NCBI GenBank assembly: GCA_944389515.1
Contig: CALXMQ010000010.1
Location: 1-37,527, forward strand
Length of the DNA: 37,527 bases
Source of the DNA: an uncultured Alphaproteobacteria bacterium
Lineage (GTDB): Bacteria > Pseudomonadota > Alphaproteobacteria > Rs-D84
Direction of reading: 5' to 3'
The notes beneath the pieces are model-generated. The model worked only from the letters and a program-made list of their open reading frames with translations, had not been told where the DNA came from and did no database searches. This document shows positions 2 through 27,342 of this stretch, piece after piece. Each line of letters opens with the position of its first letter. Within the stretch, counting starts at the first letter, position 1. A program made the position numbers and the translations under genes.

Positions 2-1273
2 GATGAACTGTATAATATTGCCCAGGGTATATTCTTGAACATTGATAACAATATGTTAGAACAATGTCAAAAGGCAGCAGATGAAGCCATGATAAAGGTT
101 TGTGGTGATACTGAAAATTGCAATAATTTGACAGTTGATGAAAATATTGGTGCGCGTTCATTGGAATACAAGATTTGTGAATACACCAACAGTGAAAATA
201 GTTTGGATATTGATTATGCAAAATGCAGAACAGATGTATCACAAATTTTGGATACGGAACTGGGACGTGTAGAAGGTTCAACCAGTACACAACTGGGGCC
301 GGTTACACCGTTTGCTGGGGTTATTGATGGCACCATTTATTGGGAAAGTGTAGAAATTGGTGACGATGGGCGTTTAATCACAGTGGATCAGTATTTGGAA
401 AATATTGGTCAACCAAATATGGACAGCCAAAATCGTGAAAAAATATCATCTGAATTGGCGGTGTTGCAAAGCAGTATTGATACGGCAATAAATGCCGTAG
501 AGGCAGACCCCCAGGTACAATTCTGTATGACAGGACGTACCGTTCAAGGTGTAAATGATCGCAATGTTGTTGACCGCAGTGGCAGCACAACAGGGCGTTT
601 CCCAGAATTGACCAAACAAATGCGCATGATTATCGCAAATGCGGCATTAAAGGTTGCCAAGGATAATTATTATAAAAAGTATGACGAATTAAATGAAAAG
701 TTATTGCAAGATTATGCGACGATTGGTGAACGTATGGCTGAAATTCAGGGCGAAAATGCATTGGATGCACGGCGCGAAATTGCACGAATTGCATGCATAA
801 ACTTTGCAGATATGTCCAGTTTACCAAAATCACCAGAACCACCGAAAAACGCGTTTGGTAAAGTTTTGTCGGCGGTGGCAATGATTGGGGCGGCAGTTGC
901 AATACCGTTTACTGCTGGGATGTCAGGATTGACGCTGGTTGGCAGTTCGCTTGTTTCCACAGCAACCATCGCAACAGGAGCAGTTGCAACCGCAGCTATT
1001 GGTACGGCGGCCATAGGATTGGCAGGCAATGCCGGATCGGGCAGTGCAAATGGCGCGGATGCGTCTGCCCAGCGCGAGTTGATTGGTTCCAAGCAGTTGA
1101 ATCAATGGAATTATAAAGAAACCATTACTTCAACGTTTGAGTGGGACACATTGGTTTGTCACAAATGCACACGTACGCAACAATGTTCCAAAACCAAGAA
1201 TCCGCTGTTTGGGAATAAATATTGCAAAACATGGGCGGATGCAGTTGAATCATGTGTTGATGTGCAATTCTGA
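2..1273 (+). CDS. Cys-containing Gly/Ala-zipper envelope protein, 5'-truncated
   Basis: The frame is open to the first bases of the window, so the gene begins upstream. The TTG at 35 is probably internal. About 420 residues are visible. The N-terminal part has a Cys pattern (C-x8-VCG-x4-C near the start) resembling the Cys repeats of the secreted proteins at 19804-22594. The middle is helical and charged. A Gly/Ala/Thr-rich hydrophobic stretch follows, about 55 residues long and encoded near 870-1050, with many small-xxx-small spacings that suggest membrane insertion or oligomerisation. The C-terminus has a second Cys cluster (CHKC...C...C...C). I do not recognise a named family. By analogy with the intact relatives I infer an exported protein, but its signal peptide lies outside the window. 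An intrinsic terminator follows directly. Confidence 0.75.
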   Translation, partial: DELYNIAQGIFLNIDNNMLEQCQKAADEAMIKVCGDTENCNNLTVDENIGARSLEYKICEYTNSENSLDIDYAKCRTDVSQILDTELGRVEGSTSTQLGPVTPFAGVIDGTIYWESVEIGDDGRLITVDQYLENIGQPNMDSQNREKISSELAVLQSSIDTAINAVEADPQVQFCMTGRTVQGVNDRNVVDRSGSTTGRFPELTKQMRMIIANAALKVAKDNYYKKYDELNEKLLQDYATIGERMAEIQGENALDARREIARIACINFADMSSLPKSPEPPKNAFGKVLSAVAMIGAAVAIPFTAGMSGLTLVGSSLVSTATIATGAVATAAIGTAAIGLAGNAGSGSANGADASAQRELIGSKQLNQWNYKETITSTFEWDTLVCHKCTRTQQCSKTKNPLFGNKYCKTWADAVESCVDVQF

Positions 1274-12851: not shown

Positions 12852-12882
12852 AAAACGCGTTTTTTATAACGCGTTTTATTTT
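12852..12882. terminator. Bidirectional intrinsic terminator
   Basis: AAAACGCGTT (12852-12861) and AACGCGTTTT (12868-12877) form a 10-base stem between converging genes. It overlaps the stop codon of the minus-strand gene. Confidence 0.8.
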
Positions 12883-13844
12883 AGTTCGTCTAAATCTGTG
12901 ATGACGGTTATGCCGCTGTTTTTCCATTGGGTGCATCGTATATCTAAATCCATTATATTTTTTTGCCCCAGATACAACACTGGACGCAGGCCGCGTTCTG
13001 TGCCGGCCGCCAGTACCGCATCAGCAGGTGATGGTTTTTGTTTCCCAGCGGCAAACCATGTTTCGTTATCGGCAACCCAAAAATCAGGGTCGTTATGTGC
13101 GGCAATCGCATCGCGTGATGTGAATATGATATTGTCTGTGACGGTGAATTCTGTGCCGTTTTTGGATAAGTATTCTGTTACTGGGGTTAAATCGTTTTCT
13201 GGTTCGTCGGTTGGTGATGGGTGCGGCTGGTCTGGTGGGGTGTCAAAATCTATGTCTGAAAATACAGGGGTAAAAGAAGGTATATCAGATTCGTCAGATT
13301 GTGTGCTGATATCAAAGTCAGACGGTAATGGTAATTCACCTGGTTGCGACAATTCTGGTGCTTGTTGTGCGCTTGGTTTTGGGGTGGTCATATTTGTTAT
13401 GTCAAAGTTTGATTTTGGGGTTGGACCCGTATGTGCGCGTGCACGGGCAAATGCTGCGCGCATTTCTGTTGGGTATACTTTTTGTGACACAGATTTTTCT
13501 GGCGTTGGGGTGGGTGGGGGTGGTGTTGTATCTGGTTCTTTATCCGTTTGGATTTTTACGGGTTGTAAAAAACTGGGTAATTTTATTGTAAATAATGGTT
13601 TTTTTGTACGATAAATAACCATTGTGGTGGCAATGTATAACGGTATTGCCGCCAAAATCAATATGCCGAATACAAATCCTGGGAATCCACGCAGTTGTGC
13701 ATGAAATAATATGTTCCATTGCGTGCCTGAAAACATATCAAAGTTAAACATGTATTTTAATACAGTCCACATCACCAGGACATAGCATATTGTCCATATA
13801 AATGCGTATTTATTTTTTTTAATAAAATCTAAGACTTTATTCAT
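12876..13844 (-). CDS. Inner-membrane protein with Pro-rich linker and C-terminal domain
   Basis: A 322-residue protein of unknown family. Two hydrophobic helices (about residues 13-32 and 53-77) anchor it in the inner membrane. A long disordered linker rich in P, T, S and acidic residues (about 100-215, including a TPPPPTPTPE run) leads to a compact C-terminal domain (about 220-322) with predicted alternating strands and helices (FTSRDAIAAH, GLRPVLYLG, GITVITDLDEL). With a short N-terminus and both ends on the same side, the domain should face the cytoplasm, but this is inference. The gene has a near-consensus promoter 9 bases before the ATG and no Shine-Dalgarno. Its neighbours give no hint of a pathway. 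Confidence 0.75.
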   Translation of the reverse strand: MNKVLDFIKKNKYAFIWTICYVLVMWTVLKYMFNFDMFSGTQWNILFHAQLRGFPGFVFGILILAAIPLYIATTMVIYRTKKPLFTIKLPSFLQPVKIQTDKEPDTTPPPPTPTPEKSVSQKVYPTEMRAAFARARAHTGPTPKSNFDITNMTTPKPSAQQAPELSQPGELPLPSDFDISTQSDESDIPSFTPVFSDIDFDTPPDQPHPSPTDEPENDLTPVTEYLSKNGTEFTVTDNIIFTSRDAIAAHNDPDFWVADNETWFAAGKQKPSPADAVLAAGTERGLRPVLYLGQKNIMDLDIRCTQWKNSGITVITDLDELK

Positions 13845-13980: not shown

Positions 13981-16062
13981 ATGCAACATTTGCTGAAATC
14001 GTTTGGTATGTCTGTGGTTGGATTGGTGGTTTGCACGTTCGTTGGAAATTCTTATGCGGCGGCCACTGGGCGTGCGGCGTACAATAATGTTCAATCAGGG
14101 CGTGCCGGGGTGACAACATCTGCGTCATCGCAACGTATGCCGACAATGCCGACATTACCAAATTTCACAGTTGGAAATACGTCCCCCAGTTTACCGTCTG
14201 TGACACCAGATAATCCAAATCCAGACCCAGATCCGGATCCAGATCCAGACCCAGAGCCTGAATGTCCAGATGGTGGTGTGAAAAATTCTGAATACACCGT
14301 GGATAATTGTATGGATGATATTTTAATGTGCATAAACACGGGGGCTTTGCCGGGTGGATTAAACGATTTGTTTAACGAAGATTTACGTAATTCAATCGTA
14401 AATGGTATGAATTTATGTGCAACCCAGGTGGAACGTTGTATTGCCGAAGTACGCCGGGACTGTGCATATGTATATCGTACGTCGGCAGATGTGTGGATTG
14501 ATTTTAATGCACGCAAAGTACAACCAGAATATTATAATTTTGTTTTGCGTAAAACAGGTTTGACCCCGAACCAGGCTGAAAATACATGCTTATTATTAGA
14601 TGTAAATACGTATGGTTCATCGTTTGATGCGGTGTCAAATTCTGGCAATGTGACATCAGAATATAATATTGGTGTTGGCGCATATAACAGCCAGAACGGA
14701 AATGTATTGATTAAAAATAATCCCCAAGGTGTTACACTGAATTATGGAAATTCGGGGGTTGATGGGCAACGTGGTCATTATGCGCGTTGGAATCCGACAA
14801 CTGCGGAATGCTGGATTCGTGTCGGGGCGTATAACAAAGATTCACAAATTAAAAACAGTTGGCTGTTTGGTGCGGCGGGTAATGACCAACCGGCCGAAGT
14901 ATGGCAGTTGGCTGGCGATACATTTACATGCAATCGTGATTTGTTTGGGTTTTCATTGATGAATCAAACAAATACTGCGGCGGTTGTTGGTGTTGGCGGT
15001 GGCGCTGTGTTGGGTGCTGGGATTGGCGCGATTGCAGGTCATGGTGCGCGTGCATTTGATTGCACCAAACAAACACATCGTGAAATGTTGACCGAAGAAT
15101 TACGTGCGGATGCAAACTTTGGCACAATCAGCGAATATCTGGAAGACCCGATTCCTGCGACGATTGATGTGATAACACGTAATCAATGCGAAGAAATCGT
15201 GTTGTTGTACGATAAATTCGTTCAGGTTGAATCTGCGTTGGAAAAATGTAATACGGTCAGTGTAACTTCGTCTGAAACAACCATTTCGTCAGAAGTTCAG
15301 GCGAATTGCAGTAAATATGTAAATATCAATGACTGTTTTGCAAGTTTGCCAATGTTGGCGCCTTGTGTTGGGCAAGGATTTACCACGGCGCAACAGTGTG
15401 CGGATTATATTGCAGCGCAAAATGCCGCCGCCGCAGAACAAATGGCAACGGATAATATTGCGGCATCAGAAAATGAATTCTGTTCGTTCCAACCATTGAA
15501 TTTGGCGCGCGCACGTGGTGACAGTATTTATTGCAATGCTGGGGGTGGCGAATGCCAAAATGCGGTGCAAATCAGTGTTGATATTGAACGCTTGGACGAT
15601 GTGTTTAACAGCACAATCAAAGATTTGTTGCAAAATGGCGAAGAATCCAATATGGGCAAGGCGATTGGTATCGGCGTCGGTGTTGGTGCTGGGGCTGGCG
15701 GATTGGCAACTGCGATTACCGCGTTTGTTGAACGCAGCAACATAAATTGCCGTGTTGGTGATGGTTTGGCCCAGGTTGGTTATGGCAAATCATATTCGAT
15801 TGGTTCATTGCAAGATTTCTATGTTAAATGGAATCTGAATTTGCCAGATGTCATCATGCCAACGGCCACGGCGGTTGATTGCGATACATGGAAACGTGCA
15901 TGTGGAACAATTACTGATCTGAATGCATGCAGAAATGCACAAATAAATTACAAGCCGGCTGATGCAGCAACGGTGACATTGGTACCGACGGCGTGCGCAG
16001 TATCGGGCAGTGCATGTATTGAAAATTATCCTGTGGCCAGATCATATGGCGCATGCGAATAA
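13981..16062 (+). CDS. Large secreted Cys-rich protein with two Gly-zipper segments
   Basis: A 693-residue protein. A signal peptide (about 1-25) is followed by a low-complexity region and an Asp-Pro repeat (about 77-92). The large mature part has 26 cysteines by my count. Two Gly/Ala/Val-rich hydrophobic stretches, near residues 332-358 and 560-583, have the repeated G-x3-G spacing of glycine zippers. The even, high Cys count implies periplasmic or surface location with disulfide bonds. I recognise no named domain. The architecture resembles the first gene of the window and the minus-strand proteins that converge on it, so they may belong to one envelope structure. A GGGGG Shine-Dalgarno lies 8 bases before the ATG and a TATAAT is at 13945. 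Confidence 0.8.
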   Translation: MQHLLKSFGMSVVGLVVCTFVGNSYAAATGRAAYNNVQSGRAGVTTSASSQRMPTMPTLPNFTVGNTSPSLPSVTPDNPNPDPDPDPDPDPEPECPDGGVKNSEYTVDNCMDDILMCINTGALPGGLNDLFNEDLRNSIVNGMNLCATQVERCIAEVRRDCAYVYRTSADVWIDFNARKVQPEYYNFVLRKTGLTPNQAENTCLLLDVNTYGSSFDAVSNSGNVTSEYNIGVGAYNSQNGNVLIKNNPQGVTLNYGNSGVDGQRGHYARWNPTTAECWIRVGAYNKDSQIKNSWLFGAAGNDQPAEVWQLAGDTFTCNRDLFGFSLMNQTNTAAVVGVGGGAVLGAGIGAIAGHGARAFDCTKQTHREMLTEELRADANFGTISEYLEDPIPATIDVITRNQCEEIVLLYDKFVQVESALEKCNTVSVTSSETTISSEVQANCSKYVNINDCFASLPMLAPCVGQGFTTAQQCADYIAAQNAAAAEQMATDNIAASENEFCSFQPLNLARARGDSIYCNAGGGECQNAVQISVDIERLDDVFNSTIKDLLQNGEESNMGKAIGIGVGVGAGAGGLATAITAFVERSNINCRVGDGLAQVGYGKSYSIGSLQDFYVKWNLNLPDVIMPTATAVDCDTWKRACGTITDLNACRNAQINYKPADAATVTLVPTACAVSGSACIENYPVARSYGACE
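14218..14260 (+). repeat. Asp-Pro coding repeat
   Basis: Tandem GAYCCR-type hexamers encode alternating Asp-Pro dipeptides, a stiff spacer between the N-terminal tail and the Cys-rich domain. Slippage at this site could change its length. Confidence 0.7.
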
Positions 16063-16083
16063 ATATTAGACTAAGGTGTTCAA

Positions 16084-16110
16084 AAACCGCCGAACAGGCG
16101 GTTTTTTTAT
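16084..16110. terminator. Bidirectional intrinsic terminator
   Basis: AAACCGCC (16084-16091) and GGCGGTTT (16097-16104) with A/T tracts on both sides, between the converging genes that end at 16062 and 16107. Confidence 0.9.
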
Positions 16111-16394
16111 TTGCTGTAATAACATGGTCGGGTATATGTGCATGTGCCGGTATTGTCAGAACAACTGGAACCCGTTGGCAGATAACATACTGATATGCTG
16201 CCCTGGTTTTTATCCGCAGATGTGCCATTACCAGGGCATGGTAAACATTGATTGGATGTCAGGTAATATCTTGGTTTGCATGCAGTATATTGTTTTGTTA
16301 CTATATCGCATCCACTGATGGCATGTGATGGCGATGCATATGTTATTATGATTGTCATGGCGGTGGTGATAAAAATTATGTTGCGTGGTATCAT
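16107..16394 (-). CDS. Small secreted Cys-rich protein (CYxP module)
   Basis: A 95-residue protein with a signal peptide (about 1-25, ending SHA) and a 70-residue mature part with 10 cysteines. It has a C-x2-C knot (NQCLPCPGNG) and a terminal module I-S-V-C-Y-L-P-x10-C-x-Y-x3-C-Y-Y-S. The same module ends the protein at 30879-31763 (I-T-A-C-Y-I-P-x10-Y-x-F-x3-C-N-Y-S), so the two are related. It lies 24 bases after the next Cys-rich gene and is likely co-transcribed with it. Function unknown. Disulfide bonds in the periplasm or on the surface are expected. Confidence 0.7.
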   Translation of the reverse strand: MIPRNIIFITTAMTIIITYASPSHAISGCDIVTKQYTACKPRYYLTSNQCLPCPGNGTSADKNQGSISVCYLPTGSSCSDNTGTCTYTRPCYYSK

Positions 16395-16418
16395 GTGTTT
16401 CTCGTTATGTTATATCGG

Positions 16419-16814
16419 TTACATTTTGCATGTACAGTCTGGATTTGAATTTGCACTGGTGTCTGTGGTTATGCGGTAACATGGGCCGGTGCTTTGGCTG
16501 GGGGCGCATGTGCCGTATATGTTGTTGTAATATCCCATCGCATCAGAATCACTGGTGGTGTCACGTTCGCACATACCGTTTAACACGTTTAATTTATGTT
16601 CACCGGGGCATGAATAAAATGTTCCAACGGTGCCTGTTGGGCAACAGCATTGACCAGAATATATATTTTTGTTGCATTCAGATAATGATGAACATGTTGT
16701 TGCTATAATTGCGTTGGCATCATTATGTATTAGTGTAAAGACGGTTATAATTGATATAAATCGACCGATTAGTATCGGTGTTTTTATTTTTGAAAAAATC
16801 CCTGCTTTCTGCAT
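16419..16814 (-). CDS. Small secreted Cys-rich protein
   Basis: A 131-residue protein with an N-terminal hydrophobic stretch (about 15-35) that ends in a signal-peptidase-like ANA site. Its roughly 95-residue mature part has a dozen cysteines, including the runs QCCCP and CTCKM. The segment CPTGTVGTFYSCPGEHKL resembles the CPxGT knots of the large OmpA protein just upstream. The start has AGGGGAT 7 bases ahead, which also forms the end of a short leader ORF. Its own promoter (TTGCCC, 17 bases, TATAAT) lies between it and the OmpA gene. No assigned family. Confidence 0.7.
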   Translation of the reverse strand: MQKAGIFSKIKTPILIGRFISIITVFTLIHNDANAIIATTCSSLSECNKNIYSGQCCCPTGTVGTFYSCPGEHKLNVLNGMCERDTTSDSDAMGYYNNIYGTCAPSQSTGPCYRITTDTSANSNPDCTCKM

Positions 16815-16818
16815 ATTT

Positions 16819-16866
16819 TTATCCCCTATATTTCGCCGAATCCAAACGGTGGTTTTTATTCAGCAT
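16819..16866 (-). CDS. Possible leader peptide upstream of Cys-rich gene
   Basis: A 15-codon frame (MLNKNHRLDSAKYRG) begins about 9 bases after the expected transcription start and stops 4 bases before the ATG of the gene at 16814. The downstream Shine-Dalgarno lies inside it, which would couple translation. A similar frame (RLDSA core) occurs before the related gene at 30879. It could equally be a non-coding repeat copy. Confidence 0.3.
   Translation of the reverse strand: MLNKNHRLDSAKYRG
16827..16866 (-). repeat. Copy C of a short dispersed element
   Basis: This stretch aligns without gaps to two copies at 30728-30756 and 30855-30827 (minus). All begin ATG and share the core CCGTTTGG-[AG]-TT. 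Copy C matches copy B at about 22-24 of 28 positions. Confidence 0.5.
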
Positions 16867-16881
16867 AAAATTGATACTATT

Positions 16882-16910
16882 ATTATACAGACTTTTTGTC
16901 CATCGGGCAA
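16882..16910 (-). promoter_or_regulatory. Promoter of the small Cys-rich pair
   Basis: On the minus strand TTGCCC (16910-16905), a 17-base spacer and a consensus TATAAT (16887-16882), in the gap after the OmpA gene. The small genes can thus be expressed independently of the large operon. Confidence 0.55.
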
Positions 16911-16916
16911 GTTTTT

Positions 16917-19784
16917 TTATGCCCGGGGACATGCCGCATTTGTTGCAGTAACTGTGACATTGCGACATTTGTCGTCTGGTTGTCCCTGGGTTGTTTCTGT
17001 ACAGTTTTCTGCACCGGCACCGACGGCATACATGTTGGTTGCGGATAATCCGGCGGCTGATAATGCCGATTTTACTGCGTCTGCACGTTGTTTGGATAAT
17101 TGTGCGTTTCGTTTATCAGAACCGGTTGTATCGGTATTTCCAACAATTTTTATACAATATGCATCTTGGCCAGCAAATTGTGCATTAAAATCAGTTACAA
17201 AGTCTTGTAATGTTTGTTGGGCGGCATTGGTTAAATTTGCACTGCCCAATGCGAACAGATTTTGTGCAGGTAATGTAATCGGTTCTGTTTCCAGTACCGG
17301 TTGTTTTATAACGCATTGACCATCGGTGTTTAATTCATGCGTCAGTTCTGGGCATTCACATTTTGGCAATGCGTCAGAACTTAAAACATATCCATCGGTA
17401 CATGTGCATTGACCAGTATCTGGGTTTACTGTTACATGACCGGCGGTTTCGTCGCATTGTGGTTCAACATCAGTGGTTGGTGTGACGCACGTGTCATTTT
17501 CGCCTGGAACGGTGCCATCAGGGCATGCACATTGGTTGTTTACAACAACCAGGTCGCCAGGACATGTGTCGCATGCAACACTGGATGTGTTAAATACTTG
17601 TTTGGTTGCGTCTGGACATACACAATTTGGGAACGTGCCAGTTGTCCCAGACGGGCATTGTGCGCCTTGTTCATTATTTGGTAATGCCACTGTATCATCA
17701 TGTAATTTTTTCAGTGGTTCATATTTAGCCCGAATTTCATCAGACATTTCCCGTGGTTTGTCACCAACATAGTTGGCCAGTACATTTCCAGCAATGCCCA
17801 CCAAAGCCCCAGCACCAGCAACAATCGCCCCAGTTGTCAGTTGCGATTGTGTTTCTGCACGTTGTGCGGCCCATGCGGCGGCATCTGCCCCAGATGGGTC
17901 AGACAGTGCGCGTGAAAGTGATGTATATGCGCCGCCAGTTATGCCAACGGATTCATTGTCATACAGACCAGATGTTGCGGCATCCAAGATAACTTCTGAT
18001 TCAATGCCGGGTGCCATACCAAGTGATTCTTTGCGTAATTTCAGGTCTGCCGCCAATGTGGTGTATTCGTTATATATCGGCAACAGTGTATTTGCGCCAG
18101 GTAATTGTATATTTGTTTCGCCACCAGTTATATTGCGGCCGGCACCGTAATCACAACGGAACGTTGCCAGATATGCTGCCATATCCATTTCTGCATCTGT
18201 ATCTGCGTTTTGTTCGGCCATTGCAGATGCCAGTTGCATTCCACCAATACCCATTGCACCAATGGCGGCACCACCAATCAGTTTGTTTGCCAGTGATTGT
18301 TCGCGTTCCTTCATTGCGTTTGCATTTTCTTGTAATTCTGCGATTTCTTGTTGTGCATCTTCTTGGGACAGTATTGGTTCAATGCAAGATTTTTTATCGT
18401 TACTGATACTGAATCCGTCTTTGCATTGATCAATTATACAAACCTCGGTACCAGATGTTGCGTCCCATTGGCGATGTGCAGATTTTGCATTTTTCGGCAT
18501 TGGGTGGCAATTTCCAGATACCGCAACACATTGACCATCGGATACTTCAAACCCAGCATTGCATTCTGTGGCATAACATTTACCGCGCTTTAATTCGCCG
18601 GCGGTGGCGTTTTCAATTTGTGCGATTTGTTCATCAGAACATGGACCTTGGCTGATTTCACATGCGGTGTTATCATCGTTTGGTAAATATCCCTTGGCAC
18701 ATTTTTTTATTTCGCATTTCAGTGTATTATTTTCCCAAACATATTTTGATTTTTCAGCATTTGCGTCATTTGGATTACAATCTTTATCAACCTGGTCTTC
18801 GCATCCATCGCCGGCGGCATTTAATACATATCGTGGTGATTCACAATTTAATGCGTCACATGTTTTGGTTTTTGCGTTCATTGTGTATCCATGTGCACAA
18901 GTGTCTGGTACACAATGGATGCCAGAGCCATCAATGACTTTGCCATCAGGGTTACGTTCTGTATGACCAGAAGCAGCGTTTATAGCGGCCAATTCTTCGG
19001 CAGTACACGCACGGGATTTATAGTCTGCTGCAATAACCGTTTCGTTTAAAGTAGCTAGGGGTATTTTTATTTTTTGATTTTCGCCAGGGGTAATGGTTAC
19101 ATCTGTATATCCCGTAAAAGAAATAAAATATTTTTGGTTCACAGGAACATTTTTAAGTTCAAAGCACCCTTTATCATTTGTGATTGTGGAATTTTCAGAT
19201 GTTGCCTTTATGCCAAATGGCATAACAGTTGCACCAACCAGCGGTTCGTCGTTTGAATCAACAACACAACCAGACAATGTTGTGGTGCCGGTGTTTGATG
19301 CAGATGTTGTATCCGTGGTTGTTTTTTCAGGCGCATCAGATGTGGACGTTGAACTTGTTGACGCAGATGATGCCGTGGACGTTTTTCCATAACATTCGAC
19401 GTCAATCTTTTCCTGAATAAATTGGTCTTTGGCGCGCCTTTTGATAGACGTGTCTGTTTCCCTATATAAATCCCAACATACTTCTGGAACAACTTCGCGT
19501 GGTGTTTGTCCTGCTTTATATTCGTATGTAAAATTGCCAGTACCAATAACATAACAATTACCAGAACCGTCACTTGTATAAGGGGTATTTAACTTGGTTT
19601 CTTGTTCCTTGTCTGCTTGCGCACTCATTTGTTCATATATTTCTTTATAACGTGGCTCATCAGAATAACTCATCAAGTATTGCTTATTGATGTCCATTTC
19701 GCATTCTTCTTGATCTGATATTACTGCGCCAAATGTGGGCAGGGTAAATAAAACTGCAAAAATTCCAAATAAATACTTTTTCAT
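16917..19784 (-). CDS. Large Cys-rich envelope protein with OmpA peptidoglycan-binding domain
   Basis: A 955-residue mosaic protein. The signal peptide is residues 1-20 (MKK...FGA). Residues 170-245 form a carboxypeptidase-regulatory-like (CarbopepD_reg_2) Ig fold, with SGCVVDSNDEPLVGATV and later ISFTGYTDVTITPG. Residues about 270-460 hold repeated C-x2-G-[YF]-x(5-9)-C knots. Two Gly/Ala-rich hydrophobic stretches (near 485-505 and 630-660) flank a helical part, more Cys knots follow, and residues 838-955 form an OmpA domain (VGNTDTTGS, LSKQRADAV, terminal CRNVTV) that binds peptidoglycan diaminopimelate. The protein should be periplasmic or outer-membrane associated, tethered to the wall. 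I start at the ATG of MKK rather than an upstream alternative that overlaps the preceding gene. It is the third gene of a minus-strand operon. Confidence 0.88.
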   Translation of the reverse strand: MKKYLFGIFAVLFTLPTFGAVISDQEECEMDINKQYLMSYSDEPRYKEIYEQMSAQADKEQETKLNTPYTSDGSGNCYVIGTGNFTYEYKAGQTPREVVPEVCWDLYRETDTSIKRRAKDQFIQEKIDVECYGKTSTASSASTSSTSTSDAPEKTTTDTTSASNTGTTTLSGCVVDSNDEPLVGATVMPFGIKATSENSTITNDKGCFELKNVPVNQKYFISFTGYTDVTITPGENQKIKIPLATLNETVIAADYKSRACTAEELAAINAASGHTERNPDGKVIDGSGIHCVPDTCAHGYTMNAKTKTCDALNCESPRYVLNAAGDGCEDQVDKDCNPNDANAEKSKYVWENNTLKCEIKKCAKGYLPNDDNTACEISQGPCSDEQIAQIENATAGELKRGKCYATECNAGFEVSDGQCVAVSGNCHPMPKNAKSAHRQWDATSGTEVCIIDQCKDGFSISNDKKSCIEPILSQEDAQQEIAELQENANAMKEREQSLANKLIGGAAIGAMGIGGMQLASAMAEQNADTDAEMDMAAYLATFRCDYGAGRNITGGETNIQLPGANTLLPIYNEYTTLAADLKLRKESLGMAPGIESEVILDAATSGLYDNESVGITGGAYTSLSRALSDPSGADAAAWAAQRAETQSQLTTGAIVAGAGALVGIAGNVLANYVGDKPREMSDEIRAKYEPLKKLHDDTVALPNNEQGAQCPSGTTGTFPNCVCPDATKQVFNTSSVACDTCPGDLVVVNNQCACPDGTVPGENDTCVTPTTDVEPQCDETAGHVTVNPDTGQCTCTDGYVLSSDALPKCECPELTHELNTDGQCVIKQPVLETEPITLPAQNLFALGSANLTNAAQQTLQDFVTDFNAQFAGQDAYCIKIVGNTDTTGSDKRNAQLSKQRADAVKSALSAAGLSATNMYAVGAGAENCTETTQGQPDDKCRNVTVTATNAACPRA

Positions 19785-19803
19785 ATGCTTTTGTTCCAAA
19801 TGT

Positions 19804-21690
19804 TTAGCGCGACGATACACCACGTGTGGTGCGTGTGCCCAATGTTTTGCCGGTTGAATTGGTGTTTAATAATCCGCCACCAAGTCCAGAATTTGTTCCG
19901 CCCAACAGACCGCCACCAGTATTATTGCCAGATAAACCAGGGGTTAAACCAATCTGTAAATCCATTTCACATTTTTTTGTTTCAGAATTATATTTTTGAT
20001 TTGCGCCACATTCACACATGCCGGTGACAGTATTAAATGTGCCGCCGTTGTCGCAAATACATTTACCGTTAAACCATGTACCAACAATGTTGCAACGCTG
20101 TTCTTGGTCACTGATTGTCAGTGGTGTTGTTTCTGGGTCGCGTTCTTTGCATTTGCCATTAAAATCGTCGTATATTTCGTTTTCACCACATTGGGGATCA
20201 CTGCAAAAACCGTTTTTCCATGTACCATTGACCGCCGCACATGCGTCTTGTAATTCTTGTTGTGACGGTCTGGATGTTGATAATAACCCAGATTTTTTAT
20301 CATCTGTATCATCATCTGACTGTTTACTATCTTTATCGTCAGATTTTTTATCATCTGATTTTTTATCCTTGGTGGAAGCTTTTTTATCGCCATCTGTATC
20401 TGAGTCATCTGGACCATAATTTTCATCGTATTCATCCTGGGCATCTTTCAGGGCCTTTTCAGCCTTGTGACGATCGATTGCACGGTCGATTGCCCCAGAT
20501 GTAATCGCACCAGCCGCCACACCCAGGCCAGATCCCAATAATGCGGATGACGCAGATGTTTGTTCGCGTGTTAAACGATACGCATTTTCCATAAATGTTG
20601 TTATATCAATACCAAACCAATTTGGTGTGCAATCAAATACATCGCCGGCATATGCCTTTTTCGATGCATATAATGTGGAATCATCACCTGCATAGAAATT
20701 GACAGTGTATACGCAACTGAACGTGCGTTCGTCAAACATGGCGCCCAATGTTTGGCATTGATTGGCCATTTGGTCGCGTAATTCGTACAAACGTTCTTCG
20801 TCACGCATAACCTGTTCTTCGGCGTCAACACGCAGATTGGCAAAAACCTGCATTGCACGTGATGCCAATCCACTGTCTTGTTCAATACAGTTATTGGCGA
20901 TTGTTTCACATTTTGCAATCGCAGCATCACCAGCGGATTTGCCCAAACATTTACTGAACGTTACGCCGCATTCGGTCATTATGCAATCGTTATATCGATT
21001 ACCACAATCTAAAATCGCGTTATATGATGCCAGGCGCGCATTTATGTCACGGTCTGATTTTATTTCTGCGGCAAATAATCTGTATTCTTCGCCAGTGCAT
21101 GTCGCATCAATGTCGTTGCGGCAAGAATCCATTTTGTTGCCCCACATTGTGTCGGTGTCACCACTGCACCCGGTGAAATCGTTACCGCATTTTTCGCGCA
21201 TGCATGCACGCAAACCAACATCACATGCATTTTGATTGCCAGATAAAACCGTATTCGCAGTTGCGATTGCGTCCTGGGCATCCAATTCAGCACGTTGTGC
21301 CGCAACCAATTCAGCCAATGTTGCCGCAGATGTATCGGTGTTTGATGTGCTGGATTCAGATAAAATTTCATCAAAATATGATGATCTGTTTTCAATTACC
21401 ATTTCGTCAGAATCATCCGATGTATCAGTGGCATCCGATGAAGTGGTTGTTTCCGACTGATTATTTGTGGTTGTTGTGGTATTTGTATCGGTTGTTGTTG
21501 ACACAGTTGTGGTTGGCATGCGACCCGTTGTTGCGTTGCCACGTGTCGTTACCGATGGACGCGCAGATGTTGCCGCACCACGTGATACAACCGCCGCGTC
21601 GGCCGCGCATGCAAATAATGCAATTACCGCAGTACAGATAACACTGCGGAATATTGTTGGGTGCCGATAAAATTCTGTTTTCTGTGTCAT
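19804..21690 (-). CDS. Secreted Cys-rich protein with Cys repeats, Gly-zipper and K/D linker
   Basis: A 628-residue protein. The start is the ATG giving MTQKTEFYRHP, followed by a hydrophobic signal segment ending ACAADA. A Thr/Ser/Asn-rich disordered region comes next. Two Cys repeats follow, of pattern C-x4-[RY]-x-[AD]-C-[MI]-x3-C-G-x3-x-x-C (encoded near 21176-21236 and 20935-21005), then a helical stretch, a Gly/Ala hydrophobic segment (GSGLGVAAGAITSGAI), a Lys/Asp-rich linker, and EGF-like knots (C-x2-G-x6-C). The same Cys repeat occurs in the protein encoded just upstream, which supports a common assembly. It is the second gene of the operon, 31 bases after the first and 19 before the OmpA gene. 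Function unknown. Confidence 0.82.
   Translation of the reverse strand: MTQKTEFYRHPTIFRSVICTAVIALFACAADAAVVSRGAATSARPSVTTRGNATTGRMPTTTVSTTTDTNTTTTTNNQSETTTSSDATDTSDDSDEMVIENRSSYFDEILSESSTSNTDTSAATLAELVAAQRAELDAQDAIATANTVLSGNQNACDVGLRACMREKCGNDFTGCSGDTDTMWGNKMDSCRNDIDATCTGEEYRLFAAEIKSDRDINARLASYNAILDCGNRYNDCIMTECGVTFSKCLGKSAGDAAIAKCETIANNCIEQDSGLASRAMQVFANLRVDAEEQVMRDEERLYELRDQMANQCQTLGAMFDERTFSCVYTVNFYAGDDSTLYASKKAYAGDVFDCTPNWFGIDITTFMENAYRLTREQTSASSALLGSGLGVAAGAITSGAIDRAIDRHKAEKALKDAQDEYDENYGPDDSDTDGDKKASTKDKKSDDKKSDDKDSKQSDDDTDDKKSGLLSTSRPSQQELQDACAAVNGTWKNGFCSDPQCGENEIYDDFNGKCKERDPETTPLTISDQEQRCNIVGTWFNGKCICDNGGTFNTVTGMCECGANQKYNSETKKCEMDLQIGLTPGLSGNNTGGGLLGGTNSGLGGGLLNTNSTGKTLGTRTTRGVSSR
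20290..20430 (-). repeat. Lys/Asp/Ser low-complexity coding tract
   Basis: Repeated units encoding K-[SD]-D-D-K-K-S and similar make a highly charged linker in the 628-residue Cys-rich protein. Near-identical short DNA units (ATCTGATTTTTTATC and variants) make the tract prone to slippage. Confidence 0.65.
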
Positions 21691-21721
21691 TATGTTTTTT
21701 ATCTTGTGTATATATCCTGGT

Positions 21722-22594
21722 TTAATCCAATACCGCACATGCCAAATCATAAAATTCGCACAACAGTGTCGCAGTGGCACGTTCAGATTCAAATCCGGTG
21801 GCGCATTTGTTTGGCATACTGCGTTCACAAATTGTATCAACACATGTATTACGCGCAGAATTATCGCGGCATGCGTTTTGTGCACTTATCAACTTCTGTT
21901 CACGTGCAGATTGATATCCGGCGACAATATTGGCCAATAATGTATCTGCATTTTTAATTGCGGTATCACGGGCGTTGGTCAATGTCGTGCGAATATCAGC
22001 AATGTATTCGGTGCAACCAGTGGCCTCTATACTGCATGTGGAAAAGAATTCGTCAAATGCGGCGCTGGTTTCACAGGCGCGCCAATCAGGACCACAACGC
22101 TTGGCATCAATCATGCATGCGCGGATTGATGTTTGGCAACTGGGTAAACTGGCCTTGGTGGTGTTGGCGTCCGCGATTGTGGCAGACATTTGTGCACTGA
22201 TTCCAGCCGCACGACACGATTGTTCAATCAATTCATCGTATATATCAGATACGTCATCTGCGGTACAACCGTCAATCTTTTTAATACATTGAACCGTTGC
22301 CCATGCATATCGTTGGCCAGGGTCGGTTGGTGCATCTTCCAATTCATCTTCGCTGATTGTGTATCGGGCGGATGAACCCAAAGACAAACTGCGCATGCCG
22401 CCACGTTCAGATGGCGGTTCGCCGGCACTGGATGTTCCGCAATATTGGCAACGTGCCGCCGGATTTGATGATACGTTTATTGCACATACAGAATCCAGGC
22501 ATCGGGTTAAATTCATCTGGGAACATGTGGCCGCCGCCGCAATACCGGGTGCAGCCAGCATGCCAAGTATTAAAAATAGGGTATGTGGTTTCAT
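21722..22594 (-). CDS. Secreted Cys-rich protein with C-x4-R-x-A-C repeat
   Basis: A 290-residue protein. The signal peptide (1-22, ending AAAA) is followed at once by cysteines (TCSQMNLTRC). The mature part has over 20 cysteines arranged in pairs separated by helices. One segment (encoded near 22070-22142) has the same spacing as the two repeats of the next gene: C-x4-R-A-C-M, then CG-x-[DN]-[WF]-x2-C. I take the ATG with GAGAGAA as ribosome site. The longer frame upstream is not supported. It is the first gene of the operon 22594 to 16917 and shares a 151-base divergent promoter region with the gene at 22746. Family unknown. Confidence 0.8.
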   Translation of the reverse strand: MKPHTLFLILGMLAAPGIAAAATCSQMNLTRCLDSVCAINVSSNPAARCQYCGTSSAGEPPSERGGMRSLSLGSSARYTISEDELEDAPTDPGQRYAWATVQCIKKIDGCTADDVSDIYDELIEQSCRAAGISAQMSATIADANTTKASLPSCQTSIRACMIDAKRCGPDWRACETSAAFDEFFSTCSIEATGCTEYIADIRTTLTNARDTAIKNADTLLANIVAGYQSAREQKLISAQNACRDNSARNTCVDTICERSMPNKCATGFESERATATLLCEFYDLACAVLD

Positions 22595-22688
22595 TTCTCT
22601 CTTTCCATAAAAGTATATCAAAAAACAGTTTGCCTGCAAAGTAAAAATACATAATAAATATGAAAAAATAAAAAATTCATTTTTATAG

Positions 22689-22717
22689 TTGACAAAAGAA
22701 TTATTTTGTCCTATATT
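22689..22717 (+). promoter_or_regulatory. Strong promoter of the gene at 22746
   Basis: TTGACA (22689-22694), exactly 17 bases, then TATATT (22712-22717). The start codon is 28 bases further with AAAGGA as ribosome site. Confidence 0.8.
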
Positions 22718-22745
22718 ACAATGTGTAAAAAACAAAGGATTGAAA

Positions 22746-23408
22746 ATGAACTGGAAAAGATTTGCACGCGTCGGCGCAGAAGTTATCGGTGCTGTTGCGA
22801 TTGTTGTATTGTGTGTCAAGGCTTGTCAAGATGGAAATATCCGTGACGAAGTCAAGGATGTTCAGGCCAAAGTTGCTGATGCACGTGCAGCAGTAAATGA
22901 AATGAACGAACAAAATCAGGCTTTGCGTGATTCTGTGGTTATGTGGGCAGATTCTGTTGCTTTCTATAAGCAGGGATTGAAAAAATGCGAAGAAGGCAAA
23001 AAACGTGCCCCAGCACGTCGTCCAGATGCGGCGCCTGTACGCCCAGCACGTCCAGTCGTTCGTGATACTGTTATTGTCAAAGTTGATGATAACAAACCAG
23101 CCAATGTAAACGGGCATAACACCAGAATCAATATGAACGACAATACCAGAAATAATGAAAATATTATCGTTCAAAATGGTACACAAAACGCCAGCATGAC
23201 AGAAATTACATTGGGTAATTCTGCGGTGAACGATGGTAATATCGTTGTAAATAATGGTGGTAATGTCACTATTTATGATAATCCAGCGGCGGTTGATTCT
23301 TTGTCTGCCAAGGTGGATTCTTTGTTGGTGGCACGCCAGAATAATAATGCCGCTGCGTCCAGTGTCGTTATTATTAAAAAAGTAAAAACGTATCAACGTA
23401 CACGCTAA
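22746..23408 (+). CDS. Membrane-anchored coiled-coil protein with Asn-rich repeat region
   Basis: A 220-residue protein. An N-terminal hydrophobic helix (about 8-27) anchors or exports it. Residues 30-75 form a heptad coiled coil (NIRDEVKDVQAKVADARAAV and on). A basic Pro/Arg/Ala region (about 85-110) follows, then an Asn-rich stretch (about 118-180) of short N-x-x-I/V-x-x-N-G units that could stack as a beta-solenoid or curlin-like fold, and a basic tail. A Leu-Cys near the helix end is not a clean lipobox. It is divergent from the Cys-rich operon. No known family is recognised. A structural role is possible but unproven. Confidence 0.75.
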   Translation: MNWKRFARVGAEVIGAVAIVVLCVKACQDGNIRDEVKDVQAKVADARAAVNEMNEQNQALRDSVVMWADSVAFYKQGLKKCEEGKKRAPARRPDAAPVRPARPVVRDTVIVKVDDNKPANVNGHNTRINMNDNTRNNENIIVQNGTQNASMTEITLGNSAVNDGNIVVNNGGNVTIYDNPAAVDSLSAKVDSLLVARQNNNAAASSVVIIKKVKTYQRTR

Positions 23409-23538: not shown

Positions 23539-26500
23539 ATGAAATACGTCAGATTATTACTGTTTGCTTTGTTTTTAATTCCGGTTGGGGGGGCGTTTGC
23601 GGCCAATGTGTCAAATAACGAATTTATGGTTGCGGCGCAATTATTATCTGCGGCAAAAAATGCCGATATTCAACAGGTGCAAAATTTGATAAATGCCGGT
23701 GCAAATGTAAATTATGTGGACAGTACGGGATTGTCTTTGGTTTGTACTGCGTTGATGAATAATGATATTCGGGCGGCACAAATTCTGCAAATGTATGGCG
23801 CAGATGCATCGCAATGTGATCGACAAATTAAACAGTATGAATCGCGAACGCAACCCGAAGAGACAGGGGGATTGTTCAGTGGATTATCCTCTGCCCAGAC
23901 AATTTCTTTGGCGGCGGCAGGGGCCGCCGTTGTTGTAGGTGGCGTGTTGTTACTGACAGATTGGCTGGATCCGGGTAATGAAAATGGTGGTGGTTCGTCC
24001 AGTGGCGGAAATCGCCCGGGTGGTGATGGCAGTGGTGGCGACGGCAGTGGTGCGGTGGCGTCTGATGAAATTCCGGTTGGGCCGGCTTATTTTACCGCAG
24101 ATGGTGAAATCGCGTACAGTACGGCGGCATATCAACAAAATTTAGGACAATGGAATCCGTCGGTGGGCGGTATTCGGGCGGCAGACTTTAATTATTTCAG
24201 ACCGGGGGTAAAAACAGAAACAGGCGAAGATGAAGATGCACCACAAATTCAACAAACCAGTTATTTGACAGATGGAATTTTGTTGCCTTTGCAAAACTAT
24301 TTGCTGATTATGCATGGGTATTCTTCTTTTGCAAATGGGTATATGGGGCAATATACTTTTCGTGATGCAGAAAATAATCCACAAAAAGTATTGAATACCA
24401 CAGGTGGCGGAAAACCAATTCGTACAGCATTGATTACTGCAAATGGTGTAAATCCGTCGGGATCAGCTGGGCGGTCTGTGGATGGCATAGAATGGTCCAG
24501 TTCAACGGCGGTAAATGCCAATACTGGGACAATGGATAAATATGCGAATTATAATAACCCGTCGGCTGGGAATTTAGGGTCGGAATTGGAAAGCCTGGGC
24601 GGAACAGGGGTGTTTGATTTATCGGGCAGTGGAACAGCCATGAATCCGTTTGCATCGGCCACGGACAGTGCATTGGCAAAAATTGTTGCAGGTTGGGAAA
24701 CAGATGGTCGTGCGTATGGGGATATGTATGGTTTTGCACCAAACAGTCAGTTGGCCATATATCGTACTGGTAATGGCAAGGGCTGGGTTGATATTGAAAA
24801 TCCAACCGAAGGCGCAGTTGTTGGAACTTTGACCGATTCAGGTGTTGCAGGTACAGCAGGTAAAATTGAATCTGGGGATACAATCACGTTTAATGGTAAA
24901 ACGTATGTTATTTCATCTGCGCTGGATGATGCAGGCGTTACAAACCCAACAATCACAATAAATGGTACAACGTATAAATTGGGGGCAGGCAGTACATTGT
25001 TAAAGGGGACTTGTTCTGGTGATGACTGCGATGATGTTTCTGATATTGCAATTTATCAAGGAACAGATGGATATTATTATATCAATACCACAGGGGGGGG
25101 TACTGTTGATGGTGTTTATGTGATTGATAATAATAATATATATGCACAAAAAGAATTAAAAGATACTGATATCAAGACGTTTGAGGCGATATATAATATG
25201 CCGAAAATATATGAGGTTGGTGACGCAAATGGATTGTCTTCGATTGCAGTGACGGTGTTAAATCCCGAATCGCGTAATGTGTCGTATGTCAATACGGGTG
25301 GGATGGAATCTTATATATCGCTGAACAAAGGCGATGAATTGACCGCGTTTATGAACTTAGTAAACAATTATTATGATAAAGATTCGTCTGATGCACGAAC
25401 ACAGGGACAATATGCAAATGCTGTATTGGGAAGCTATGTACGTGGGTGGCCGATTTTAATTATGCCGGCTGGGGAATTTGAATATGGTGTTGGTGACGGA
25501 AAATCATTAAATGTATTGGATGCAACGTTTGAAAATTATGCACCGGCAATTTACGATAATCTGGAACATTTATTTATGACGGTTGTTGCTGTCCAGCATA
25601 CAACAGGAACATCGTCGGCGGATAGCATAGACGATTATGGTAATGGTATAAATGAAGATTTTGGCCCATTGTATTTATCCATGTGGACAGATAATAATGG
25701 AACGCCCGATAAGACCAGTGATGATATCATATATTCTTCGCGTAAATGTGGCGTGGCAGGTTTGGGAATAAATGGTGTTGATCCGTGGTGTTTTTCAGCG
25801 GCTGGGCCAACAGCTGAAATGGCGACTGCATCTGCGGCGGGGGCAGTGGCGGCATTAAAAGGTGCATTTACGTATATGGATAATGAAACTTTGTTCACAT
25901 TGATGGCGTTGACCGCAGATGGACCATATTTGGGTACAGACAGCGCAGGTAATTCGTTCACAATAGATGGATTGGTGACGTATTTGAAATCTATGTATTC
26001 TTTGCCACCTGATTATCATGAAGACCAGTTGTTGGGGCAAGATTATTTGGATGCGTTTGCCGAAGTATATGGGTATGGCATGATAAATCTGGAACGTGCA
26101 ATGACACCGGGTAATAAAATTTATTTCTATGACGGGAATAAAATAGTGTCTGGTGACGGCAACGCGTACTGGCGTATGGCGTCAAGTACGATGTTCCGGG
26201 CATCTTCGGTATTCAGTTTATCAGGTACAAGTATCAGTGCGCCATTTTTCGATGTGTTGGAAAGTGTTGATGGTGATATGACTTTGCCACGCGTGTGGAA
26301 AAATGAATTTGCGTTGGGGGTGACGGATTCGCGCGGTTTGTATATGGGGGATGTTTTGGGTGAATTCAAAACACGGCGTTCAACACCACAACGTGTGGAA
26401 TTTGGAAACTTTGGTTTTTCAATGGTTGCGTCTGAAAAACCGTATGCAGATAATTTGAACGGTTTGGATAATATGCGTTTGGATTATACATCAGGGGATT

Positions 26501-27342
26501 GGAATTTTGCGGCTGGATATCAGCGTCACTTTACAGATGGGGCGTCACGGTTTGATGGGATGTCTAATCCTGTGTTGGGGTTGATGTCAAATGCAATTAC
26601 CACAGATGTCGCGTATAATATGGGGGCTTGGTCTTTTGGGGCACGGGCATTTTCTGGGGCGATTACAGATGAAACAATGCTGGATAATGATCCAACGATA
26701 TCGTCGCAATATTTGCCAGCGCGCTTAGGCTTGATGCAGGGTGCACAATCTGATATTGCATGGAATAGTGATATGTTTGGTTTTTCTGCATCGATTGGTG
26801 CGGCGCATGAAAATAATACCTTGTTGGGTGCGGTATCTGATGGTTTGTTGGATATGGGCAATGGCGATACGGTGTATGTTGATTCTGAATTTAGATTTAA
26901 CCCAACAGACAATGTGATGTTCAGATTACGTTCAACATTTGCACGTACGTATGCAGATGCAAATGGGCAATTTATATTGGGAATTTCTGATATCGATTCA
27001 AATGCGTTTGCGTTTGGTGTTGATGCTGGGAATTTCAGTTTCAGTGTGTCACAGCCATTGGCAATCAGTCGTGGTTCTTTGCAGCATCCGTTTGCAAATT
27101 ATGAAATAATTGATATGGGTGATGGTAAATATGATTTGAATATTACGGATATGCACATAGAAGATGTGTCGTTGCAATCTGATAATCGCGAAGTCAGATT
27201 TACTGGTGCGTATCGGCATAATTTTGGTGAATTTACTGATGGGGCAATCGGATTTATATATCGGGTGCATCCAAATAATACAGATGCATTTGGAAATGAA
27301 TCGATATTTATGATGAAAATGACACATCGTTTGGGTATTTAA
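23539..27342 (+). CDS. Ankyrin-subtilase-like autotransporter, probably protease-dead
   Basis: A 1267-residue secreted protein. Signal peptide 1-21. Ankyrin-type helices fill about 27-95 (AAKNADIQQVQNLINAGANV). A Gly/Ala hydrophobic segment lies near 119-142, followed by a Gly/Ser linker. A long subtilase (S8)-like region runs from about 190 to 860. It keeps an HG at 259-260, GFAPNSQLAIYR, and the post-catalytic signature VYGYGMINLERAM seen in S8 autotransporters. However, the oxyanion Asn motif (AGN) reads AGE (E646), and the GTS-MATP serine motif reads PTAEMATAS (near 757-765) without the nucleophile. The C-terminal 350 residues are strand-rich, as in an autotransporter barrel, although the last residues (HRLGI) lack the usual aromatic end. 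It probably displays a passenger rather than a working protease. The start has GAGAG upstream. Confidence 0.85.
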   Translation: MKYVRLLLFALFLIPVGGAFAANVSNNEFMVAAQLLSAAKNADIQQVQNLINAGANVNYVDSTGLSLVCTALMNNDIRAAQILQMYGADASQCDRQIKQYESRTQPEETGGLFSGLSSAQTISLAAAGAAVVVGGVLLLTDWLDPGNENGGGSSSGGNRPGGDGSGGDGSGAVASDEIPVGPAYFTADGEIAYSTAAYQQNLGQWNPSVGGIRAADFNYFRPGVKTETGEDEDAPQIQQTSYLTDGILLPLQNYLLIMHGYSSFANGYMGQYTFRDAENNPQKVLNTTGGGKPIRTALITANGVNPSGSAGRSVDGIEWSSSTAVNANTGTMDKYANYNNPSAGNLGSELESLGGTGVFDLSGSGTAMNPFASATDSALAKIVAGWETDGRAYGDMYGFAPNSQLAIYRTGNGKGWVDIENPTEGAVVGTLTDSGVAGTAGKIESGDTITFNGKTYVISSALDDAGVTNPTITINGTTYKLGAGSTLLKGTCSGDDCDDVSDIAIYQGTDGYYYINTTGGGTVDGVYVIDNNNIYAQKELKDTDIKTFEAIYNMPKIYEVGDANGLSSIAVTVLNPESRNVSYVNTGGMESYISLNKGDELTAFMNLVNNYYDKDSSDARTQGQYANAVLGSYVRGWPILIMPAGEFEYGVGDGKSLNVLDATFENYAPAIYDNLEHLFMTVVAVQHTTGTSSADSIDDYGNGINEDFGPLYLSMWTDNNGTPDKTSDDIIYSSRKCGVAGLGINGVDPWCFSAAGPTAEMATASAAGAVAALKGAFTYMDNETLFTLMALTADGPYLGTDSAGNSFTIDGLVTYLKSMYSLPPDYHEDQLLGQDYLDAFAEVYGYGMINLERAMTPGNKIYFYDGNKIVSGDGNAYWRMASSTMFRASSVFSLSGTSISAPFFDVLESVDGDMTLPRVWKNEFALGVTDSRGLYMGDVLGEFKTRRSTPQRVEFGNFGFSMVASEKPYADNLNGLDNMRLDYTSGDWNFAAGYQRHFTDGASRFDGMSNPVLGLMSNAITTDVAYNMGAWSFGARAFSGAITDETMLDNDPTISSQYLPARLGLMQGAQSDIAWNSDMFGFSASIGAAHENNTLLGAVSDGLLDMGNGDTVYVDSEFRFNPTDNVMFRLRSTFARTYADANGQFILGISDIDSNAFAFGVDAGNFSFSVSQPLAISRGSLQHPFANYEIIDMGDGKYDLNITDMHIEDVSLQSDNREVRFTGAYRHNFGEFTDGAIGFIYRVHPNNTDAFGNESIFMMKMTHRLGI

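Follow-up and report, generated by a model that had tools for sequence, protein, structure and literature searches.

The exported proteins described in this study have their closest described counterparts in the chlamydial outer membrane complex, in anchors carrying an OmpA C-terminal domain, in the Gly-zipper families and in helical-hairpin proteins with paired cysteine motifs. The chlamydial complex (OmcA, OmcB, MOMP) shares with the present set the combination of exported, Cys-rich envelope proteins and a genomic Dsb oxidase, as Chlamydia encodes DsbA/DsbB (PMC6752827); it differs in showing no sequence match to the set, which has a predicted peptidoglycan-binding partner and Gly-zipper segments and for which crosslinking is a prediction. 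Anchors with the OmpA C-terminal domain (PF00691; YiaD_Gzip_OmpA) resemble one of our proteins, D, in the GNTD...R pattern and in the Gly-rich hydrophobic segments preceding the domain. Unlike these anchors, D is 955 aa long and has a CarboxypepD_reg domain and Cys-rich repeats. The likeness to the Gly-zipper families PF13488, PF13441 and PF13436 lies in the Gly-zipper segments of the proteins E and A, and these models match a few members of the w1 family, weakly; the families do not have the large Cys arrays of A and E. Finally, E and the protein F resemble twin CX3C / CX9C (CHCH-like) helical-hairpin proteins in that paired CXnC motifs sit on short helices connected by a turn, but they differ in their CX6C-X4-6-CX6C spacing, in being bacterial and exported and in having no Pfam match.

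The window analysed here is one entire contig of 37,527 bases within a genome of 947,067 bases (98.6% complete). The host belongs to Candidatus Enterousia, order Rs-D84 of the Alphaproteobacteria, with a genome of 0.95 Mb; close relatives are named Candidatus Enterousia excrementavium and C. Enterousia intestinigallinarum. A published survey of Rs-D84 describes the order as reduced-genome gut bacteria of around or under 1 Mb with few biosynthetic pathways, in which the standard transporters taking up sugars, amino acids and peptides are absent (PMC12306168).

Gene content of the locus

The genes to which the analysis refers are the following.

w1, 2-1273, plus strand: the last 423 aa of a longer Cys-rich protein that the contig start truncates, with a C-terminal hydrophobic hairpin and a Cys motif
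Two-TM protein, 12876-13844, minus strand: often adjoins A and w1
A, 13981-16062, plus strand: 693 aa, a Cys-rich protein with a signal peptide and two Gly-zipper segments
D, 19784-16917, minus strand: 955 aa; has a signal peptide, a CarboxypepD_reg domain and Cys-rich repeats as well as two hydrophobic Gly/Ala segments, and ends in an OmpA domain with GNTD...KQRA
E, 21690-19804, minus strand: 628 aa with a signal peptide; the helical core, in which 15 Cys are conserved, is followed by a conserved Gly-zipper segment and by a Cys-rich C-terminal tail that varies
F, 22594-21722, minus strand: 290 aa with a signal peptide and 20 invariant Cys; all-alpha; opens the F-E-D run
G, 22746-23408, plus strand: 220 aa; has a membrane anchor at the N-terminus and a coiled-coil-like part; transcribed away from F
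Ankyrin-like exported protein, 23539-27342, plus strand: 1267 aa, divergent neighbour of F

The original prediction had read F, E and D as a minus-strand run, and the open reading frames confirm it, with gaps of 31 bases (F/E) and 19 bases (E/D). It had also described A to F as exported and Cys-rich. Judged by eye, signal-peptide-like N-termini are indeed present in all six, and the Cys counts range from 8 to 43 (A 27, B 8, C 11, D 43, E 27, F 20). The proposed gene set itself needs correction. F, E, D and A stand, and A was found in 33/34 genus genomes. B and C, both small Cys-rich ORFs, have no relatives at E 1e-6 in the equivalent region of 34 relatives, and C starts within a dispersed repeat of ~100 bp; both are therefore placed outside the conserved set, to which the w1 paralogues must be added. 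G is present in a subset of relatives.

Small Cys-rich exported genes have the dispersed repeat (window 16756-16856; 16 nhmmer matches) at their 5' edge. Copies in the same genome (given as contig:position) include C3:20413, C1:97501, C9:5980, C1:40546, C1:77752, C1:33390, C1:19795, C12:15124 and others. The ends of the repeat are inverted repeats (AAACCACCG ... CGGTGGTTT), and it also has a terminator-like hairpin followed by a T run; it looks like a cassette or leader element.

The OmpA domain predicted in D is above the Pfam cut-off (PF00691, residues 843-933, E 2e-16, 60.5 bits vs 27.2), as is its CarboxypepD_reg domain. The Asp and Arg that contact diaminopimelate in E. coli OmpA are kept in D, as judged by eye: GNTDTTGSDKRNAQLSKQRADAV. 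D is not a YiaD equivalog, since it reaches 58.8 bits against NCBIfam NF053611 vs a cut-off of 175.

Hydrophobic Gly/Ala stretches, another element of the original prediction, are found in A, E, D, w1 and the large 23539 protein, and not in F, B or C. The associated G-x3-G spacing carries less weight: the presence of GxxxGxxxG is within chance for the Gly content, as shuffled sequences of A, D and E have it in 28-36% of cases. A and E match no Gly-zipper model of Pfam. What counts for a putative Gly-zipper in E is the retention of G386, G388, G390 and G394 in at least 90% of orthologues, and not GxxxGxxxG presence alone.

In the protein encoded at 23539, the ankyrin-like N-part contains two conserved Cys, a TM-like segment rich in Gly is found at residue 121, and the C-part is long and conserved. 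This protein had been labelled an autotransporter; Pfam and PDB profiles return only ankyrin, in 16/19 orthologues, and no barrel or protease, an absence that does not exclude an autotransporter. A degenerate subtilisin, seen by eye in the same protein, is not claimed, as Pfam and PDB profiles lend it no support. A cytochrome reading was likewise rejected, CXXCH being absent from A, D, E, F and w1.

Relationship of E, F and w1 and conserved cysteines of E and F

Profile comparison relates E to w1 (prob 96, E 2e-9), E to F (prob 93, E 4e-7) and F to w1 (prob 81, E 1e-5); by profile, the three are one family. A and E have in common an N-terminal element and an FDC/FTC..FG..Gly-zipper segment (prob 51-70; E 4e-5 at prob 70). 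The w1 family counts about 12 loci on the stretches of the host genome in which paralogues were counted, 10 or so matching strongly, and two of its members lie in tandem at C1:8874-13761. The window (contig C10, 1-77) and contig C4 (1-77) start with identical 77 bases inside two w1 paralogues, which places the assembly break in a stretch that w1 paralogues have in common; the 5' half missing from a contig-start w1 may lie at the end of C9 (36599-38212).

Conservation in F and E is concentrated on cysteine. In an alignment of 61 F orthologues, the others being 51-76% identical to the F of the window, all 20/20 Cys are invariant vs 35/270 other positions (p 1e-16). In 51 E cores, 14/15 Cys are invariant and the remaining one is kept in 50/51 (p 2e-13). 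The same 20 and 15 columns remain at least 85% Cys after other families of the order are added. The cysteines are regularly spaced, in E as C156-x6-C163-x4-C168-x6-C175 and C229-x6-C236-x4-C241-x6-C248, and in F as C153-x6-C160-x6-C167-x6-C174; motifs of this paired-CX6C type occur in 8/980 ORFs genome-wide vs 1.25 expected from shuffles. As 15 is an odd number, at least one conserved Cys of E would be free or bonded to another chain.

The exported proteome of the host is rich in Cys-rich proteins genome-wide, with up to 201 Cys per ORF. The extreme of this exported set is a single ORF of 2464 aa with 201 Cys (C8:21724-29118). Among the genes of the same genome are one for a DsbA-like protein anchored in the membrane (PF01323, E 3e-20) and one for another exported, thioredoxin-like protein with CPHC, and disulfides are therefore plausible.

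Searches for known families and folds

A, E and F have no convincing match in Pfam, NCBIfam or PHROGs. PDB sequence profiles gave nothing for F, low-complexity matches only for E and none of use for w1. The predicted model of F is all alpha, with a mean pLDDT of 81.8 that approaches 95 across residues 150-290, whereas the E core model is weaker (pLDDT 67.9). Neither model has a clear PDB relative by Foldseek or VIA-align, and F has none in the viral library either; against the PDB, F gave no Foldseek match at E 0.001, the best VIA Z being 4.8 over 66 residues, which does not rise above noise. This lack of a PDB relative does not establish that F or E has a new fold. The set as a whole matched no pilus, secretion or S-layer system in Pfam, NCBIfam, PHROGs or Foldseek, in line with the original view that no named system has this gene content.

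Distribution and linkage across the order

E was found in 186/201 genomes of order Rs-D84, a minority of the matches, in the outer families, being weak. In an evenly drawn sample of the class it matched only Enterousia genomes and none of about 380 other Alphaproteobacteria. The class-sample matches of w1 all belong to Rs-D84, and none came from about 396 other members of a Pseudomonadota sample. A phage search gave no E and a plasmid search no w1. The conserved set is thus restricted to order Rs-D84.

The linkage counts below were drawn from two overlapping samples, so that some genomes are counted twice. Of 115 loci having both genes, 113 have E immediately after F on the same strand. D immediately follows E in 56/72 loci with room, and is on the same strand within reach in 63. 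In 89/93 loci the ankyrin gene is within 3 kb of F and is transcribed away from it. The link of A is looser than that of F and E: A is within reach of F-E in 41/72 loci, and often adjoins w1 and the two-TM gene. Across the genus, the expectation of a conserved order was borne out for F-E, in most cases followed by D and with the ankyrin gene diverging; A travels mostly with w1.

GrpE, TpiA and SurA, which are other neighbours, are also frequently kept within the genus, and for this reason linkage in other families weighs more. There, F-E recurs with w1, A and D although the flanking genes differ. In genome G038 of family f5 (locus L095), w1-w1-w1-F-E share a strand, the gaps measuring 7-30 bases, and F overlaps E. 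The order w1-A-F-E-D occurs in a row in genome G193 (locus L294). Three genomes of another genus (L302-L304) have A in divergent orientation to F and E.

Twelve genomes with no, weak or partial E were searched again with the F profile: 11 were without a full F, and the twelfth had one. This joint absence may reflect joint loss, for which it is weak evidence, because a draft genome loses adjacent genes together. Where E-F is absent, in some cases from near-complete genomes (e.g., G145), w1-like proteins are mostly kept, which argues that E-F is a module rather than a strict part of one obligate machine. The distance correlation between E and F (partial 0.48) is hardly better than that of an unrelated control (0.42).

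Secretion and pilus genes elsewhere in the genome

Relatives of VirB3, VirB4, VirB8 and VirB11, together with four tandem multi-TM VirB6-like proteins (the latter without a Pfam match), are encoded at C2:122239-125013, C7:1191-2186, C6:48132-48887 and C2:23013-28232, and make up a type IV secretion system, here in a gut bacterium whose genome is reduced. PilO, a T2SSE ATPase, T2SSF, a secretin, TcpQ and a prepilin-like gene (C2:131324-136004, C4:74473-77120, C4:61523-61987) correspond to an R64/TCP-type pilus. In the sections consulted, the Rs-D84 survey names type IV pili for another lineage only (PMC12306168).

Discussion

The invariant cysteines, the homology of E, F and w1, the element common to A and E, the conserved linkage, the DsbA gene, the Gly-zipper matches and the OmpA domain all point to an envelope set, and an assembly of these proteins in the envelope is likely. 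The fuller reading, to which we give a little less than an even chance, is that an envelope set specific to Rs-D84, made up of F, E, D, A and the w1 paralogues, forms a disulfide-stiffened surface or trans-envelope layer. Judging from the signal peptides, Sec would export each protein, and the DsbA-like protein, whose gene is present, would oxidize them in the periplasm. F, E and w1 would then fold into alpha-helical domains stapled by disulfides, as the helical model of F and the invariant CX6C Cys suggest. Their Gly-zipper segments may let E, A and w1 pack at or within the outer membrane, the OmpA domain of D would tether the layer to peptidoglycan, and the odd conserved Cys of E could be left for a bond to a partner chain. 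That the layer serves contact with a partner or host surface, in a bacterium making few metabolites of its own, is a guess and rather unlikely to be right.

Counting against this disulfide-stiffened layer are the low pLDDT of the E model, the loose linkage of A, an E-F correlation near that of the control and the retention of w1 without E-F. The re-oxidation of DsbA is a further difficulty in an organism of a lineage that the Rs-D84 survey reports as a fermenter without a respiratory chain (PMC12306168).

The many Cys-rich exported paralogues, the presence of DsbA and the odd conserved Cys of E would also suit a disulfide-crosslinked structural coat which, by analogy with the chlamydial outer membrane complex, stiffens the cell and has no contact or transport role. 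We consider such a coat unlikely, as peptidoglycan would be available for stiffness, given the OmpA domain of D and the MreB, RodA and MrdA which, according to the same survey, Rs-D84 genomes encode (PMC12306168). Moreover, A, E and F match no Pfam family, and A, D, E and F have no Pfam match to the protein families of the chlamydial complex at E 1.

It is also unlikely that there is no assembly at all, and that independent exported Cys-rich proteins have kept their order through slow rearrangement in a small genome. Such a view could draw on the neighbours GrpE, TpiA and SurA, often kept in the genus as well, and on the E-F distance correlation, which barely exceeds the control. Nevertheless, the F-E and w1/A/D linkage persists in other families despite changed flanks, including tight or overlapping runs, and E, F and w1 are homologous. 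Least probable is that the proteins are extracellular accessory parts, docking to a partner, of the VirB-type secretion system or R64-type thin pilus whose VirB, PilO, T2SSE, T2SSF, TcpQ and secretin genes share the genome, because those genes are on other contigs and none is in the window (loci of relatives having been compared with the window genes only), and the set has no family match to pilus or secretion parts, A, D, E and F matching no Vir, Trb or Pil family in Pfam or NCBIfam and D having a general OmpA domain.

Returning to the disulfide-stiffened layer, its location and its disulfides are testable predictions, and the set offers marker families for order Rs-D84. The most far-reaching version, an order-wide, disulfide-stapled, Gly-zipper and peptidoglycan-anchored contact or uptake apparatus that would obtain compounds from partner cells, seems to us quite unlikely; if true, it would be a class of envelope machine without a described relative. 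The Rs-D84 survey notes many hypothetical membrane proteins and suggests that they might act in cell-cell contact or partner dependence (PMC12306168), and the present set is an order-wide, otherwise undescribed candidate for the partner-facing surface proteins thus suggested.
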